From assembly GCF_907163105.1 (NCBI RefSeq), contig NZ_OU015321.1, forward strand, positions 1,054,001 through 1,118,000: 64,000 bases of DNA, written 5' to 3'. The DNA comes from Cloacibacterium caeni (GTDB lineage: Bacteria > Bacteroidota > Bacteroidia > Flavobacteriales > Weeksellaceae). Positions within the stretch are counted from its first letter, which is position 1. Each line of letters begins with the position of its first letter. A program made the position numbers and the translations under genes. Below are positions 4,652 through 63,715 of this stretch, piece by piece. A model generated the notes under the pieces. It made no database searches and was not told the origin of the DNA. It was given only the letters and a program-made list of their open reading frames with translations.

Positions 4652-4659
4652 TAATTTTG
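4652..4659 (+). promoter_or_regulatory. -7 promoter box (TAATTTTG) for copA
   Basis: TAATTTTG matches TAnnTTTG, with a TTTG at 4629-4632, 19 nt upstream, as a good -33 element. It lies 24 nt before the ATG at 4684 and argues against the longer reading frame from 4657. Confidence 0.6.
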
Positions 4660-4683
4660 AAATTTGTATCAAAATTAAGAAAG

Positions 4684-7227
4684 ATGAATACCAAAAAATA
4701 TAACGTTCTGGGAATGTCTTGCGAAGGCTGTCAGAAAAAGATTTCTTCTGCTTTAAATAATGTTGAAGGAATAAAAGCAGATGTAAATCTCGCAGGAAAT
4801 TTCGTTGAAATCACTTCTGAACAAGAAATAGACTTAGAAAAACTTAATTCTGAGCTTAAAAATGCAGGAAACTACGTTTTAGAAGATCCAGAAAAACCAA
4901 AATCTACAGAATTTATTCCACCTCAAGACAGAGTTTCTATAAGTTCGGTTTATTATTGCCCAATGGAATGTGAAGGCGATAAAGTCTATTTCGTGCAAGG
5001 TAAACGTTGTCCAGTTTGCAATATGTATTGCGTTCCGATTGAAGAAAAGCAATCAGCAATCAGCAATCAGCAATCAGCTGAAAGCAAAAAGCCGACTGCA
5101 GAAAGCGGTTACTATTGTCCCATGTTTTGTGAAGGCGATAAAACCTATCCCGAAAATGTAGGTTGCCCAGTTTGCGGAATGGATTTGGTTAAAATCACTG
5201 GCAATGATGATGAATCTGAAGACGATACCTATAAAAATTTGAAAAAGAAATTTTGGATTTCGGTTGCTTTTACGCTTCCCGTTTTTATTTTATCGATGGG
5301 AGGAATGTTTTTTGAGTTTCCTTTTAGTTCAAGAATTTCTGGAATTTTACAATTGATTTTCACGCTTCCTGTCGTATTTTTCACGGGTTGGTTTTTGTTC
5401 AAAAGAGCTTGGATTTCTTTTAAATCTTGGAATCTTAATATGTTTTCATTAATTGGTTTGGGAGCAAGTGCTGCTTTTATTTACAGCATTTTCGCACTCA
5501 CTTTTCCGAGTTTAATTCCGCATGAATTTATGCAAAATCATCACGAAGTACCGTTGTATTTCGAAGCAGTTGCCGTGATTTTAACTTTGGTAATTTTCGG
5601 ACAAATGTTGGAAGCAAAAGCCCATCAAAAAACCGGAAACGCCATTAAAGAATTGATGAATCTATCGCCAAAAGAAGCACATCTTATTCAGAATAATGTA
5701 GAAAAAAATATTTCAATTTCAGAAGTTAAGATTGGAGATATTCTAAAAGTAAAACCAGGAGAAAAAATTCCAGTTGACGGAGAAATCATCGAAGGAAATA
5801 CCACGATTGACGAAAGCATGATTACAGGTGAACCTATTCCTGCTGAGAAAAAATTAGGCGACAAAGTAACTTCTGGAACCATCAACGGAAACCAAGTTTT
5901 CCTCATGAAAACAGAGAAAATTGGCAAAGACACGCTACTTTCTCAAATTATTGAAATGGTAAATGCTGCAAGCCGAAGTAAAGCGCCAATCCAAAAACTA
6001 ACGGATAAAGTTTCTAAAATTTTTGTTCCTGTGGTGATTGCTATTTCAGTTTTGACGTTCATTTTTTGGTATTTTTTCGGTGGAGAAAATCGTGCGATTT
6101 TTGCTTTGGTTAATGCTTTAGCGGTTTTAATTGTAGCTTGTCCTTGCGCTCTTGGTTTGGCGACACCAATGTCTGTAATGGTAGGAATTGGAAAAGGAGC
6201 AAGAAATGGAATTTTGATTAAAAACGCAGAAGCTTTGGAAGAAATGGAGAAAGTAAACGTGATTATTACTGATAAAACAGGAACTTTAACCGAAGGAAAG
6301 CCTTCTTTGACTCAAATTTTCTCAGAAAATATTCCAGAAAATGAAGCATTACAGTTGGCGGCTTCTCTCAATAAAAACTCTGAACATCCACTTTCACAAG
6401 CGGTTTTAAATAAAGCTAAATTCTTCGACTCCGCTCAGAATGACAACTTAAAAGAAGTTAAAAACTTTGAAAACATTTCAGGTAGAGGAATTTTAGGAGA
6501 AATTGATAGCAAAAAATTGTTCCTTGGAAATATTCATTATCTCAAAGAAAATCATTTTGAAATTTCTGAAAATCTACTTCAAAAAGCCCAAATTCTAGAA
6601 AACGAAGCAAATACCGTTTCTTACTTAACCATCGATGAAAAAGCTGTGGCTGTTTTTGGTTTTAAAGATAAAATCAAAGACAATGCAAAATCTGCCATCA
6701 AATCTTTACAAAATAAAGGCATTGAAGTTATCATGATGACAGGCGATAATGAAGCCACTGCAAAACACGTTGCAGAAAGTCTTGGCATCAAAAAATATTT
6801 TGCGAATTGTCTTCCTCAAGACAAAATAAACGAGGTTAAAAACCTCCAAACTCAAGGAAAAATTGTTGCTATGACAGGCGATGGAATCAATGATGCTCCT
6901 GCTCTAGCACAAGCCAACGTAGGAATTGCAATGGGAACAGGAACTGATATTGCTATGAATTCCGCAGAAATTACTTTACTGAAAGGCGACATTTCTGGCG
7001 TTGCAAAATCTAAAATTTTGAGCGAAAAAATGATGAAAAATGTAAAAGAAAACTTGTTTTTTGCTTTTGCTTACAACACACTCGGAATTCCGATTGCTGC
7101 AGGTTTACTCTATCCTATTTTTGGAGTTTTATTGTCTCCAATGTTTGCTGCTGCTGCCATGAGTTTTTCTTCCGTTTCTGTGATTGCTAATTCTCTGAGA
7201 TTGAATAATGTGAAGTTGAAAATTTAA
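4684..7227 (+). CDS. copA: Copper-type heavy-metal P1B-ATPase
   Basis: This 847-residue inner-membrane exporter has, in order: an HMA domain with MSCEGC (Cys13, Cys16); two Cys-rich heavy-metal-binding domains (about residues 90-121 and 143-173, each YYCPM-x-CEGDK then CPVC); membrane helices; the TGEP actuator loop; the ion-path CPC motif (about 486-488, in ACPCALGLATP); the phosphorylated Asp in DKTGTLTEGK (about 530); the HP motif; and the GDGINDAPAL hinge. CPC plus the C-terminal MSFSSVSVIANSLR indicate Cu(I)/Ag(I). Two short tracts look like inserted dispersed repeats: residues about 122-141, between the two Cys-rich domains, and about 580-588, in the nucleotide-binding domain. It follows the HMA-AraC regulator and is probably controlled by it. 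Confidence 0.95.
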   Translation: MNTKKYNVLGMSCEGCQKKISSALNNVEGIKADVNLAGNFVEITSEQEIDLEKLNSELKNAGNYVLEDPEKPKSTEFIPPQDRVSISSVYYCPMECEGDKVYFVQGKRCPVCNMYCVPIEEKQSAISNQQSAESKKPTAESGYYCPMFCEGDKTYPENVGCPVCGMDLVKITGNDDESEDDTYKNLKKKFWISVAFTLPVFILSMGGMFFEFPFSSRISGILQLIFTLPVVFFTGWFLFKRAWISFKSWNLNMFSLIGLGASAAFIYSIFALTFPSLIPHEFMQNHHEVPLYFEAVAVILTLVIFGQMLEAKAHQKTGNAIKELMNLSPKEAHLIQNNVEKNISISEVKIGDILKVKPGEKIPVDGEIIEGNTTIDESMITGEPIPAEKKLGDKVTSGTINGNQVFLMKTEKIGKDTLLSQIIEMVNAASRSKAPIQKLTDKVSKIFVPVVIAISVLTFIFWYFFGGENRAIFALVNALAVLIVACPCALGLATPMSVMVGIGKGARNGILIKNAEALEEMEKVNVIITDKTGTLTEGKPSLTQIFSENIPENEALQLAASLNKNSEHPLSQAVLNKAKFFDSAQNDNLKEVKNFENISGRGILGEIDSKKLFLGNIHYLKENHFEISENLLQKAQILENEANTVSYLTIDEKAVAVFGFKDKIKDNAKSAIKSLQNKGIEVIMMTGDNEATAKHVAESLGIKKYFANCLPQDKINEVKNLQTQGKIVAMTGDGINDAPALAQANVGIAMGTGTDIAMNSAEITLLKGDISGVAKSKILSEKMMKNVKENLFFAFAYNTLGIPIAAGLLYPIFGVLLSPMFAAAAMSFSSVSVIANSLRLNNVKLKI
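5049..5106 (+). repeat. In-frame heptamer repeat tract inside copA
   Basis: Four perfect copies of GCAATCA (5049-5076) are followed by a GCTGAAAGC / GCAGAAAGC segment (to 5106). It encodes a Gln/Ser/Ala-rich linker containing AISNQQS between the two Cys-rich metal-binding domains. The same four-copy array plus GCAGAAAGC segment occurs in hemN (37682-37745), and a degraded relative lies at 42511-42589. Confidence 0.85.
6421..6445 (+). repeat. Dispersed 25-bp sequence (CGACTCCGCTCAGAATGACA type) in copA
   Basis: A 25-bp tract ending CGACTCCGCTCAGAATGACA encodes FFDSAQND in the nucleotide-binding domain, just after the HP motif and the helix AVLNKAK. Its CTCCGCTCAG core is strikingly G+C-rich beside the surrounding AT-rich codons. 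From memory the same sequence occurs as an intergenic repeat in many bacterial genomes, so I read it as a tolerated in-frame repeat insertion. Confidence 0.55.
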
Positions 7228-18617: not shown

Positions 18618-18736
18618 TTCGGCTCCTAACGGAGCCGAACTTATTTTCTTTTTGCAAATTTTCTACAAACCTTCAATTCCTACGGAATTATAAATTAGTA
18701 CAATAAACTCGGAACGCTAAACCCGAAACGCTAAAC
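18618..18736. repeat. Cluster of short palindromes and direct repeats
   Basis: Two related palindromes lie in series, each preceded by AAACCTTC or ACCTTC: TTCGGCTCC / GGAGCCGAA (18618-18626, 18631-18639, loop TAAC) and AATTCC / GGAATT (18675-18680, 18684-18689, loop TAC). They are followed by a direct repeat GAACGCTAAAC / GAAACGCTAAAC (about 18712-18736). The first stem is followed by T-rich DNA and could end transcription of the exported protein gene. The shared framework NTCC-TA(A)C-GGAN suggests a dispersed palindromic family. Confidence 0.65.
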
Positions 18737-27345: not shown

Positions 27346-27404
27346 GAAATATATAGACCAAAAATTTTCACAATTTCTGGTTTAAATGTACATTTGCAAT
27401 GCTT

Positions 27405-27600
27405 TTGGTTTCCGATGTTTGTCGGAATTAAAATGGGAATTCGGTGAAAATCCGAAACTGTCCCCGCAACTGTAAATCGTGCTTCGGTGAAAATCGAAGG
27501 AATTTTTTGCAAAAAAAGCCATTATCTTATTTGAAAAGATGAGAAGGTGCAAAAAATACGAAAGTCAGGAGACCTGCCAAAAACATTCATAATCAATACT
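27405..27600 (+). promoter_or_regulatory. Cobalamin riboswitch
   Basis: The 5' leader of the TonB receptor carries the conserved cobalamin-aptamer features in order: GGTTTCCGA, a GGTGAAAATCCG segment, CTGTCCCCGCAACTGTAA (about 27458-27475), a second GGTGAAAATCG arm, and the B12 box GTCAGGAGACCTGCC (27564-27578). Downstream, AGTAGA / TCTACT (about 27612-27645) can form an expression-platform hairpin before the ATG at 27711. Adenosylcobalamin or methylcobalamin binding is expected to switch the downstream receptor off. This fills the 400-bp gap after cdd. Confidence 0.95.
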
Positions 27601-30725: not shown

Positions 30726-31199
30726 ATGAAAATTAATTTACTCTGCATAGGCAAAACTGACGATAAAGAAATTAAAAATCTCATCAATTACTATCTTACA
30801 AGACTTCCTAGACATTGGAATTTTGAAATTTTAGAAATTCCAGATGTTAAAAATGCTAGAAATCTCACTCCAGATTTGCTTAAAAAAGAAGAAGCTAAAT
30901 TATTTCTCAATATTATAGAAAATACAGATTTGGTGGTACTTTTAGACGAAAAAGGAAAACAGTTTAACAGCAGAGAATTTGCCCAAAAATTAGATTCTTA
31001 TCAAAATAATTCTATCAAAAAAATCTGTTTTTTAGTGGGTGGAGCTTATGGTTTTTCAGAAGAAATGTATCAAAGAGCAAATGAAAAAATCTCCATTTCT
31101 AAAATGACTTTCACGCATCAAATGATTCGATTATTTTTTGTAGAACAGATTTACCGAGCAGACCAAATCCTACAAGGAAAACCGTATCATAATGATTAA
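30726..31199 (+). CDS. rlmH: 23S rRNA pseudouridine-1915 N3-methyltransferase
   Basis: The 157-residue SPOUT-knot enzyme has LVGGAYGFSEEMYQRANEKI (SAM-binding knot) and the C-terminal MTFTHQMIRLFFVEQIYRA followed by QGKPYHND, both nearly invariant in RlmH. It methylates pseudouridine 1915 in helix 69 of 23S rRNA after large-subunit assembly. Length is typical (155-160). It is a single-gene unit with a divergent promoter. Confidence 0.97.
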   Translation: MKINLLCIGKTDDKEIKNLINYYLTRLPRHWNFEILEIPDVKNARNLTPDLLKKEEAKLFLNIIENTDLVVLLDEKGKQFNSREFAQKLDSYQNNSIKKICFLVGGAYGFSEEMYQRANEKISISKMTFTHQMIRLFFVEQIYRADQILQGKPYHND

Positions 31200-31226
31200 A
31201 GTTATGAGTTATGAGTCTTGAGTTGT
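31200..31226. repeat. ACTCATA-type short repeat at the PAP2 C-terminus
   Basis: The tract reads GTTATGAGTTATGAGTCTTG on the plus strand: near-tandem TTATGAG units. On the minus strand it supplies the final residues (TTQDS) and the TAA stop of the PAP2 gene. I recall similar ATGAGTT arrays in intergenic DNA of related genomes. Confidence 0.5.
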
Positions 31227-31784
31227 AACTTCTGATTTTCTGATGACTTTTTTTGCTAAAGTTCCAAAGAATAAAGCCAAAAGAATTCCCATAATTGCGC
31301 CTATGATAATATCTCCAGGAAAATGCATTCCGAGATAGACTCTACTGTATGCAACGATAGCTGCCCAAACAAATAGGAAATAGGGCAATTGTTTTATTTT
31401 TTTGCCTAAAAGTATGGTAAGATAAGTCGCTACAAAAAAAGAATTAGATGAGTGTGCAGAATAAAACCCGAACTTACCACCGCATTTTACTTCTCTCAAC
31501 AAACCTTCTAATGATGTATCATGACAAGGTCTTAATCGTTCAAATCCAAATTTAAAAATATTGGCGATTTGGTCAGAAGCTGTAATTCCTAATGCTATAA
31601 AAAGCAATATGTAGAACAATGATTTTTTATTGAAATTTTTATACAGAAAATATAAAAAAATAACATAAAGCGGAATCCAGAACCACTTTTCTGAAACCAA
31701 AATCCAGAACGGATCAAAAGTAGAACTTCCTAAATTATTTAGGAAAATCATGGCTTGTTTGTCTTCTAAAATAATTTCTTCCAT
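31209..31784 (-). CDS. PAP2-family phosphatase (lipid phosphatase type)
   Basis: The 191-residue membrane protein has the three PAP2 motifs: KFGFERLRP (K-x6-R-P), FYSAHSSNS (P-S-G-H variant) and SRVYLGMHFPGD (S-R-x5-H-x3-D). It has about five to six membrane spans. Family members remove phosphate from undecaprenyl pyrophosphate, phosphatidate or lipid A; PgpB/BacA-like recycling is the most likely role. Its ATG overlaps the tatA stop in TAATG, so the genes are translationally coupled. The last residues come from a short repeat. Confidence 0.93.
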   Translation of the reverse strand: MEEIILEDKQAMIFLNNLGSSTFDPFWILVSEKWFWIPLYVIFLYFLYKNFNKKSLFYILLFIALGITASDQIANIFKFGFERLRPCHDTSLEGLLREVKCGGKFGFYSAHSSNSFFVATYLTILLGKKIKQLPYFLFVWAAIVAYSRVYLGMHFPGDIIIGAIMGILLALFFGTLAKKVIRKSEVTTQDS

Positions 31785-36628: not shown

Positions 36629-38041
36629 TTAAACCGTCATCGAAAACAATCTGGTTTCTGGCATCTTTCTCATCATTCTTAAATCAAAAGCCATCGCAAC
36701 ATTTCTGGTAAAAACTCTACCTTTTTCGGTAATTTTCACTGTATTTCCTGAAATTTCTACCAAACCATCTTCTTGCATTTCTTGTAATTTTTTCAATGCT
36801 TCTGGTAATTCTTCAAAAGAATTTTCTGGTGTAAAAGTGGTTTCTAACTGACACATTAAATTCAAAATATGTCTTCTTAATTTTAAATCTTCATCGTTTA
36901 AGATGTGACCTTTCACCACAGGAATAATTCCCTCTTCTACTCTTTTTTGATATTCTTCTACCGATTTTTCGTTTTGAGCAAAAGCATACCAAGAATCCGA
37001 AATCGCAGACATACCTAAACCTACCATCAATTGAGTATTACTTGAAGTATATCCCATGAAATTTCGGTGGAGTTTTTTATGAATTAAAGATTGGTACAAA
37101 TCATCTTTTTCGAGTGAAAAATGGTCCATTCCTACTTCTATATAACCTAATTCTTCTAACAGTTTTTTGCCATTTTCGTAGAGTTTACGTTTTTCTTCAC
37201 CACTTGGCAAATCATTTTCGTCAAAACCACGTTGACCAACTCCTTTTATCCACGGAACGTGAGCGTAAGAATAAAATGCCAGTCTGTCTGGTTTTAATTC
37301 CAAAGTCTTTCTGATGGTAAATTCCATTGCATCCCAAGTTTGGTGCGGTAAACCAAAAACCAAATCGTGAGAAACACTCTTATAACCTATTTCTCTAGCC
37401 CATTCTGTAACGTTTTTCACATTTTCGAAAGGCTGAATTCTATTGATGGCTTTTTGAACTTTTGCATCATAATCTTGCACTCCGAAACTACATCTTCTAA
37501 AGCCTAAATCATACAAAGTTTGCAAATGTACTTTGGTAGTATTGTTTGGGTGACCTTCAAAAGAAAATTCAGGATTTTCGGCAATTTCTACGGTGCTAAA
37601 AATTCCTTCTAGTAAAATTCTCAAATTTTCTGGAGAGAAAAAGGTAGGAGTTCCTCCACCGAGATGAAGTTCTTTTAGTTTGGCTTTCTGCTTTCCGCAT
37701 TCTGCTTTCTGCTCTGCTGATTGCTGATTGCTGATTGCTGATTGCGAAAATAATTCTAAATACAAATTCCACTCTTTTAAAACACTTTCTAAATAAGGTG
37801 TTTCTACAGAATGTTGTTTAGTTATGCGTTTATGACAAGCACAAAAAGTACACAATTGCTCACAAAAAGGAAGGTGAATGTAAATAGAAATTCCTTCTTG
37901 AGCATTACTCTCGTTGAAAGACTGAATAACAGTTTTTTGCCATTGTTCAGAAGTAAAACCATCATTGTCCCAGTAAGGAACGGTAGGATAAGAAGTATAT
38001 CTAGGTCCTGGAATATTATATTTATCGATTAAAGAATTCAT
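36629..38041 (-). CDS. hemN: Oxygen-independent coproporphyrinogen III dehydrogenase with a repeat insertion
   Basis: The 470-residue radical-SAM enzyme oxidises coproporphyrinogen III to protoporphyrinogen IX for haem. The 4Fe-4S site is C-x3-C-x2-C (Cys60, Cys64, Cys67 in IHLPFCEQLCTFCACHKRI), followed by LGGGTPTFF (SAM), GPRYTSYPT at the N-terminus and a C-terminal HemN domain. About 20 residues (roughly 100-120) before the LHLGGGTPT strand are Gln/Ser/Ala/Lys-rich and are encoded by a (GCAATCA)4 repeat tract that I do not expect in other HemN proteins. The rest is canonical in length and sequence. Confidence 0.95.
   Translation of the reverse strand: MNSLIDKYNIPGPRYTSYPTVPYWDNDGFTSEQWQKTVIQSFNESNAQEGISIYIHLPFCEQLCTFCACHKRITKQHSVETPYLESVLKEWNLYLELFSQSAISNQQSAEQKAECGKQKAKLKELHLGGGTPTFFSPENLRILLEGIFSTVEIAENPEFSFEGHPNNTTKVHLQTLYDLGFRRCSFGVQDYDAKVQKAINRIQPFENVKNVTEWAREIGYKSVSHDLVFGLPHQTWDAMEFTIRKTLELKPDRLAFYSYAHVPWIKGVGQRGFDENDLPSGEEKRKLYENGKKLLEELGYIEVGMDHFSLEKDDLYQSLIHKKLHRNFMGYTSSNTQLMVGLGMSAISDSWYAFAQNEKSVEEYQKRVEEGIIPVVKGHILNDEDLKLRRHILNLMCQLETTFTPENSFEELPEALKKLQEMQEDGLVEISGNTVKITEKGRVFTRNVAMAFDLRMMRKMPETRLFSMTV
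37682..37745 (-). repeat. In-frame heptamer repeat tract inside hemN
   Basis: On the coding strand four copies of GCAATCA (37745 down to 37718) are followed by GCAGAAAGC-type units to 37682. The first part is the same array in the same relative frame as the copA tract at 5049-5106, again giving the AISNQQS-type peptide. Confidence 0.85.
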
Positions 38042-38156
38042 TTTTTGGAAATTTTAAATTCTAAATTTTAGATTTTAGAATTGCAAAAATAAGGTTTATT
38101 TAGTCATTTCTAACAGACAACTTAGATAAGGTTTATTAATTTTATGAATATCTTCT

Positions 38157-42510: not shown

Positions 42511-42589
42511 TGCAATCGGCTGTCAGCATTCTGCAATCAGCTAACTAAAAATAAATGCCAAAAGCTGAAAGCTGAAGGCAGAAAGCAAT
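42511..42589. repeat. Degraded GCAATCAGC/GCTGAAAGC repeat tract between dapF and mltG
   Basis: The gap contains GCAATCGGC, GCAATCAGC, AGCTGAAAGCTGAAGGC and GCAGAAAGC in imperfect series. This is the intergenic relative of the in-frame tracts in copA (5049-5106) and hemN (37682-37745). Confidence 0.65.
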
Positions 42590-63530: not shown

Positions 63531-63609
63531 TTTATTTAATTGAAAGTTAAAAATTGAGCTAAAACTCAATCTTAAATTTTACAAAATTTACTTTTTATTT
63601 CTAAGCGTA

Positions 63610-63715
63610 ACTAGCCCTGATTGCAACGGAAATCCTGTTATTGTGAGGAAAAAACTTGGGATTGCTTCGCTTTGCTCGCAATGACAGATTGCAGTGGAAA
63701 GCAGGATTAGCTCCT
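63610..63715. repeat. Composite dispersed element between purD and guaA
   Basis: The tract opens with ACTAGCCCTGATTGCAACGG and closes with CAGGATTAGCTCC; its two ends share GATTGCA(A/G)..GGAAA in direct orientation, and ATCCTG pairs with CAGGAT. Between them lies GCTTCGCTTTGCTCGCAATG (about 63664-63683), wording that I recall as a repeat of its own in many genomes. It has higher G+C than its flanks. Confidence 0.55.

Follow-up and report, generated by a model that had tools for sequence, protein, structure and literature searches.

A heptamer tract inside copA of Cloacibacterium caeni is probably a short copy of a dispersed element resembling intervening sequences

The intervening sequence (IVS) of Coxiella burnetii 23S rRNA has been named a selfish element. 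As described in PMC4990558, it carries an open reading frame (ORF) of the PF05635 type between inverted ends, has tandem heptamers on its 5' side and a 28-bp stem equal in length to four heptamers, is cut out by RNase III, and varies in unit number among strains. PF05635, the family of 23S rRNA intervening-sequence proteins (IVPs), is described as functionally uncharacterized (PMC4990558, PMC11270868) and resembles Avd of diversity-generating retroelements (PMC10053308); one member, XCC0516 of X. campestris, is of known structure (PMC4990558, PMC3936711), and IVP ORFs have been reported in 16S and 23S rRNA insertions of bacteria of the Candidate Phyla Radiation (PMC11270868). Here, we analyzed a heptamer tract, (GCAATCA)4, in the copper-transport gene copA of Cloacibacterium caeni, within a window that comprises the whole 64,000-nucleotide stretch from position 1,054,001 to 1,118,000 of contig NZ_OU015321.1. 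The tract is almost certainly a member of a dispersed element family, and it is probably a short copy, devoid of an ORF, of an IVS-like element whose recognition and spread by an IVP we infer. The Coxiella IVS with its S23p protein is the closest precedent. Unlike that IVS, the elements reported here occupy mRNA gene junctions and reading frames, and many have no ORF. Since all 19 elements of this genome lie in protein-coding surroundings, according to ORF calls, and none in 23S rRNA, they are IVS-like rather than rRNA IVSs. The features of the copA locus are as follows.

4657..7227, plus strand: ORF of copA, copper-translocating P-type ATPase of 856 aa (TIGR01511, 585.8 bits, cut-off 397)
5049..5106, plus strand: inverted element in copA, whole in-gene element of 58 bp without an IVP ORF
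5049..5078, plus strand: left arm of the copA element, (GCAATCA)4 GC
5077..5106, minus strand: right arm of the copA element, four heptamers plus the GC common to the left arm

The four-copy heptamer reported in the initial annotation does lie in frame in copA, at positions 5049-5076, and its doubled unit (GCAATCA x2) matches six times in the window versus never in 100 shuffles. Translation probably starts at an ATG 27 bp downstream of the ORF start, and the element corresponds to approximately residues 131-150 of the ORF product. The GCTGAAAGC/GCAGAAAGC units, first taken for additional repeats, are actually a second, inverted arm, GCTTTCT GCAGTCG GCTTTTT GCTTTCA GC on the minus strand, and positions 5049-5106 are exactly one whole element; that the unit forms one arm of an element that is dispersed and associated with IVP genes had been missed. 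A copy of 58 bp leaves no room for an IVP ORF. The proposal that the tract separates two Cys-rich metal-binding domains calls for a correction: Pfam calls an HMA domain at residues 16-71 and a single HMBD at residues 152-179, after the tract, and the Cys-rich stretch directly preceding the tract is visible in the sequence without a Pfam call. Rfam at gathering thresholds returned nothing at the copA element. Elsewhere in the window, matches at these thresholds were a cobalamin riboswitch and a Flavo-1 RNA (27389-27595 and 63609-63712).

The genome that contains the window (G000) is a single contig of 2.72 Mb, in which the pattern GCWDTCNGCWDTCNGC matched 66 times and its reversed control not once. 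These matches group into 19 elements, 15 of them intergenic and four in frame (copA, hemN, cysS, and polA), built as four GCNNTCN heptamers followed by four heptamers on the other strand. Every arm of the 16 two-armed elements consists of four units plus GC; e8, e13, and e15, with a single or degraded arm, are omitted from the counts on this set, and the imperfect outermost unit of e1 was counted in register. GC starts 128/128 units, a figure that is partly by construction because arms were partly located by GC anchoring, T occupies position 5 in 125/128 and C position 6 in 112/128, and positions 3, 4, and 7 are variable. Spacers between arms range from none to ~430 bp. Six intergenic elements have both neighboring ORFs within 16 bp, seven reach into the end of a mechanically called ORF, and two lie farther away.

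A link to IVPs is seen in e10, a 493-bp copy outside the window (G000 1503023-1503515) with a 125-aa ORF between its arms. The ORF product matches PF05635 (8.5e-38), TIGR02436 ('four helix bundle protein'), and the sequence of PDB entry 2gsc, i.e., XCC0516 (9.3e-16). In a manner reminiscent of miniature inverted-repeat transposable elements (MITEs), GCNNTCN terminal inverted repeats are common to ORF-bearing e10 and 15 other two-armed copies.

PF05635 was detected in 28/40 relatives and in 0/14 control genomes. Of 91 IVP loci, phmmer recovered 88 and a custom hidden Markov model (HMM) 89; removal of two duplicates from the 89 left 87 distinct loci, many of them orthologues in congeners. Flanking arrays at a score of at least 20 accompany 68 of these 87 loci. 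Real genes served as controls because mononucleotide shuffles are weak: 4/153 ORFs from the copA and hemN loci of other genera reached this score, with the small inequality that control flanks were measured from ORF ends and IVP flanks from HMM-match ends. This set replaced an earlier control from loci selected for GCNNTCN elements (73/265 ORFs at 20 or above), which was contaminated by design. In a further, separate set of 274 gammaproteobacterial genomes, 56 carry an IVP, and 23/30 fetched loci reach a score of 20, all 23 with period 7; of 58 ORFs taken from the gammaproteobacterial loci as a control, four reach this score. Arms are inverted, not direct, in 75/77 distinct loci with both arms readable. 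Four is the commonest number of units per detected arm (47/164), followed by five (40), with a tail to 22, and the period in the 68 passing loci of relatives is 7 in 44, 8 in 19, 9 in 3, and 6 in 2.

Array type follows the IVP. Mapped on a tree of 69 IVP rows, 14 of which lack a called period, the period changes nine times against a shuffled mean of 15.8, a value that none of 200 shuffles matched; the period-9 group (two rows) alone shows no clustering. Among IVP pairs from different sites, those with at least 55% identity share the period in 95% of cases and have similar units in 24/75, whereas the lower identity classes share the period in 27-72%, with similar units in 5/1342 pairs below 35% identity, 3/594 at 35-45%, and 11/210 at 45-55%; this 68-locus pair test includes two duplicate loci. 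The subfamily with the motif DFTxMPVWQ is associated with arrays of 6-bp period in two genera (L249 of G017 and L284 of G022). The junction before a fadI-like gene harbors two separate IVP clades and a third IVP without a settled place in the tree, in eight genomes, and that before an rfbA-like gene harbors two IVP clades in five genomes, both gene names being read from the sequence rather than taken from a tool. The period and unit sequence follow the IVP subfamily, also at unlinked sites. As IVP genes of several phyla have such surroundings, with a period and sequence particular to each subfamily, arrays and IVP look, by association, like parts of one unit.

An IVP of the e10 type, at no less than 76% identity among the matches listed, occurs in 6/197 genomes of the family, four of them Cloacibacterium and two from one other genus each. 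Within Cloacibacterium, the congener G005 has its IVP genes at the positions where G216, a C. normanense genome (L119), has them. These six genomes have 20-34 matches to a three-unit GCNNTCN array, and of the other 191 only G184 reaches 20 or more (25 matches), the next being G001 with nine. The co-occurrence of IVP with at least 20 array matches yields a Fisher p of 9e-11, not corrected for relatedness. The element family is very likely tied to the IVP.

GGGANTN arrays were found in 8/274 Gammaproteobacteria genomes, with an IVP match in 6/8 versus 50/266 others (p 0.001), in a search whose reversed control also matched in several genomes, up to 28 times per strand (G254 and G301); the GGGAATC form of Xanthomonas was absent among the GGGANTN matches listed for these 274 genomes. 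A tblastn search of the IVP against plasmids retrieved 20 records, among them one from Azospirillum lipoferum 4B and 19 from genera that we take to belong to the Cyanobacteria; the taxonomy lines of the 10 records read agree with this assignment. In these 10, arrays are inverted in six, direct in two, and readable on one side only in two. Inverted examples include AGTAGGG/TCCCTAC in Nostoc edaphicum, CAGGTGA/TGTCACC in Anabaena sp. 90, between cas6 and cas4, and GAGGACG-type arrays in Azospirillum. IVP genes with flanking arrays occur inside cas operons of cyanobacterial plasmids, in the orders cas6-IVP-cas4 and cas10-IVP-cmr3 (L319, L326, and L327). The presence of IVP genes in cas loci has been noted earlier (PMC3936711, PMC10910872), and the arrays that flank them suggest that these genes are insertions. 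No report that connects cognate tandem arrays with IVP genes located elsewhere than in rRNA was found in the literature searched, which mostly left subscription papers outside.

The window itself contains two further copies with the same plan as the copA element, one in hemN and one intergenic.

36629..38041, minus strand: ORF of hemN, oxygen-independent coproporphyrinogen III oxidase of 470 aa (TIGR00538, 418.9 bits, cut-off 324.95)
37683..37745, minus strand: hemN element of 63 bp, with its sense-left arm at 37716-37745 and its sense-right arm at 37683-37712
42512..42586, plus strand: intergenic element of 75 bp, separated by 1 bp from the preceding ORF and by 11 bp from the following one

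The hemN element spans approximately residues 99-120 and amounts to a net insertion of 18 aa in HemN. The cysS copy (~residues 349-368) separates the catalytic domain (to 336) from DALR (from 380), and the polA copy (~residues 297-326) lies between the 5'-3' exonuclease (to 270) and the 3'-5' exonuclease (from 355). In the congener G003, a GCNNTCN element is in frame in an M3-family oligopeptidase (L054, 3019-3081). Other short repeats in the window include an AT-rich heptamer run directly upstream of the hemN start codon (38049-38079), an AGTTATG heptamer half-array between two convergent ORFs, possibly a lone arm from a different family of arrays (31195-31230), and an intergenic 7/14-mer repeat of the AACGCTA type (18704-18736).

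CopA linkers were aligned for eight of the 14 best loci, and this alignment, which the initial annotation had called for, indicates that the tract is lineage specific, being present in 2/7 genus members (G000 and G005); two others (G001 and G004) have other arrays, and three have a non-repeat linker. The tract does not simply add some 20 residues to CopA, as had been suggested, since it stands in place of the His-rich, non-repeat linker found in G002, G003, G006, and the outgroup G008 (CopA is 866 aa long in G006 versus 856 in G000). G005 carries the element of G000 diverged by substitution, still with 4+4 units, and no variation in unit number was found at the copA site in these two genomes, the only ones comparable. 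G001 has at this site a 58-bp element with a left arm of the GATGGAA type and a right arm of NNNAAGC-like units (L077), and G004 has two further unit types (L079). The HemN insert is found only in G000 among 68 loci with a readable loop (95 examined), in a loop whose length varies in other genomes too. The site is empty in G002, G003, G005, and G006 and holds other repeats in G001 (L109) and G004 (L110). The filled and empty hemN sites differ by the replacement of a few bases, with no clear target-site duplication. With other unit types, some with unlike arms, at the same sites in G001 and G004, the arms seem to behave as fixed-length cassettes, as if swapped.

The orientation of the elements had been attributed to stop codons. 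Direct reading bears out that the reverse unit, TGATTGC, meets TGA in every frame, and the stop-free forward reading is even stronger than proposed: GCNNTCN forms no stop in any frame whatever its variable bases, and the reverse, NGANNGC, can. All in-gene copies are in the tolerated orientation, as claimed, and they number four rather than two (4/4). Stop codons as the cause of this orientation were not borne out, because intergenic copies, where stops do not matter, are oriented alike, and because in an inverted repeat either orientation begins with a stop-proof arm. With spacers included, all 18 elements with codirectional neighbors, 14 of them intergenic, have an A-rich sense strand (18/18); for the arms alone, 14 of 16 elements are positive, two neutral, and none opposite. 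G003 and G006, whose copies are largely orthologous, agree in 12/14, with two neutral. Likewise, IVP loci are codirectional with both neighbors in 74/83 readable cases, two duplicate loci included, versus 24/53 hand-picked window genes. Element orientation therefore follows transcription generally. It could originate either in insertion by way of RNA or in selection, acting afterwards, for an A-rich sense strand. Within genes, filtering against stops is visible, though small: right-arm units giving TGA amount to 1/16 in genes versus 18/48 in intergenic copies (Fisher p 0.025).

We propose that the full form of the element consists of inverted arrays of four GCNNTCN heptamers with a PF05635 gene between them, and the short copies are devoid of the ORF. 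The IVP, which is related to a homopentameric four-helix-bundle protein of solved structure, would recognize its cognate array either in DNA or in RNA form, and this recognition would help full and short copies spread. Copies would persist where they are least harmful, at junctions of codirectional genes and, rarely, in protein linkers; there the GCNNTCN arm can create no stop, leaving only the total length and right-arm stops to be filtered. That the IVP may mobilize the family is a reasonable inference.

Several results weigh against this proposal. Four of the six IVP genomes belong to one genus, and the independent unit is therefore three genera. G184 has 25 three-unit matches and G001 nine array matches without a close IVP among the matches listed, and the IVP of G178 carries an in-frame TAA; in G184, the IVP has perhaps been lost. 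The rank correlation between IVP identity and array similarity is 0.222, barely above the largest of 300 permutations (0.207), and 19/87 and 7/30 IVP loci in relatives and Gammaproteobacteria, respectively, miss the array threshold. The arrays of Pseudanabaena and Nostoc HK-01 plasmids are direct; those of Pseudanabaena galeata (AAAAGCT/AAAAGCC) are very long and lie between cas6 and cas4. In copA and hemN, G001 and G004 carry different arrays at the site of the element, in part with unlike arms, a pattern for which a simple single insertion does not account. No movement of an element was seen, and no target-site duplication was established. Finally, all five high-copy genomes of the 40 relatives have 4-7 matches to PF01797, the Y1 transposase family, and 3/35 others have at least four (Fisher 8.5e-5). 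The odds of the proposal, and of the broader idea discussed below, are slightly reduced by this Y1 association and by the two plasmids with direct arrays.

Retention of the elements as regulatory junction sites, for mRNA processing, translation, or binding of an array-recognizing regulator that could be the IVP itself, rather than as selfish DNA, seems unlikely. Many sites are common to congeners, IVP loci sit preferentially between codirectional genes (74/83 versus 24/53 window genes), and RNA of 8/10 copies tested folds better than shuffles (z < -2), all as a regulatory role would have it. Copies inside the copA, hemN, cysS, and polA frames, the empty hemN sites of close congeners, and a junction at which genera differ in their IVP clade and array argue against it. 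So does pairing between arms: conserved positions pair in 95% of cases, and variable positions in 26.6% versus 35.0% with right arms permuted (31.2% versus 40.3% in intergenic copies alone). Selection for a perfect hairpin was rejected on this ground, and the arms look more like repeated recognition sites than like a stem under selection for perfect pairing.

The systems formed by repetitive extragenic palindromic (REP) sequences and REP-associated tyrosine transposases (RAYTs) are an established precedent for another alternative, namely, that an unrelated enzyme such as a Y1/RAYT transposase spreads the elements with the IVP as a passenger. We consider this improbable in spite of the Y1 counts of the high-copy genomes. 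Three low-copy genomes (G009, G010, and G016) have 4-5 PF01797 genes yet only 0-2 array matches, and array type follows the IVP clade at unlinked sites. The four PF01797 genes of G000 are all more than 40 kb away from every listed element, whereas the IVP sits between the arms; the Y1 genes may still have a role in trans.

Very improbable is an origin of the arrays as simple tandem repeats through polymerase slippage (a 7-bp proposal by Mrazek et al., via PMC4679880), possibly with frameshifts that make copA and hemN phase variable. Heptamers are the favored length of long repeats in many bacteria (PMC4679880), some arrays are long (arms to 22 units here; 2-26 units in Xanthomonas, PMC4692102), and strains of Coxiella differ in their number of units (PMC4990558). 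Slippage is disfavored by the fixed arms of four units each, which in copA of G000 and G005 stay 4+4 while their units diverge by substitution, and predicts neither the inverted partner (75/77) nor the link to the IVP (68/87 and 23/30 versus 4/153).

Spread of the elements through their IVPs would provide a functional lead for PF05635, recognition of cognate arrays, and one origin, open to testing, for heptamer repeats that earlier work has treated apart from each other, as products of slippage, as quadruplexes, or as signals in translation. A palindromic element in frame in housekeeping genes also suggests one route from selfish DNA to new linker peptides. A broader idea, which we regard as possible rather than probable, is that IVPs are the recognition part of widespread, unrecognized selfish elements, each subfamily reading its own 6-9-bp array and helping full and ORF-less copies to spread along the direction of transcription. 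If so, arms of IVP elements would account in large part for the heptamer repeats known from Bacteroidota, Cyanobacteria, and Xanthomonas, 23S rRNA IVSs of the classical type would be this element within rRNA, and the IVP genes of cas operons would represent insertions and not parts of CRISPR function. Were IVPs to read arrays by a subfamily-specific code, they would form a novel class of proteins that recognize sequence.

Known dispersed repeats share parts of this design. The GGGAATC repeats of Xanthomonas are likewise dispersed, mostly intergenic, and usually of four units, with 70 and 75 convergent pairs; PMC4692102 discusses them, together with Nostoc GGGGA(C/T)T repeats, as quadruplex-forming, and its available text does not use the term S23. 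The Nostoc repeats form few convergent pairs (PMC4692102). The TAACTGA repeats of Beggiatoaceae, Cyanobacteria, and Bacteroidetes are also intergenic heptamer arrays of patchy distribution, for which a mobile repeat-binding protein was raised as one possibility; they differ in being nearly all direct, with one inverted repeat in BOGUAY, and neither S23 nor four helix appears in the available text of that report (PMC4679880). REP/RAYT systems are recognized by an element beside a Y1 gene, and no such pair was found in G000, where every Y1 gene is more than 40 kb from the listed elements. MITEs resemble the short copies as inverted-repeat, ORF-less sequences whose ends are common to a longer ORF-bearing copy (PMC10969869); in our elements, the arms are tandem arrays, no target-site duplication was established, and no transposase was identified. 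Lastly, the Rickettsia palindromic elements, compared here by description, are ~150 bp long, and the elements of C. caeni are, unlike them, mostly intergenic; both are palindromic and lie in frame in unrelated genes (PMC10969869).

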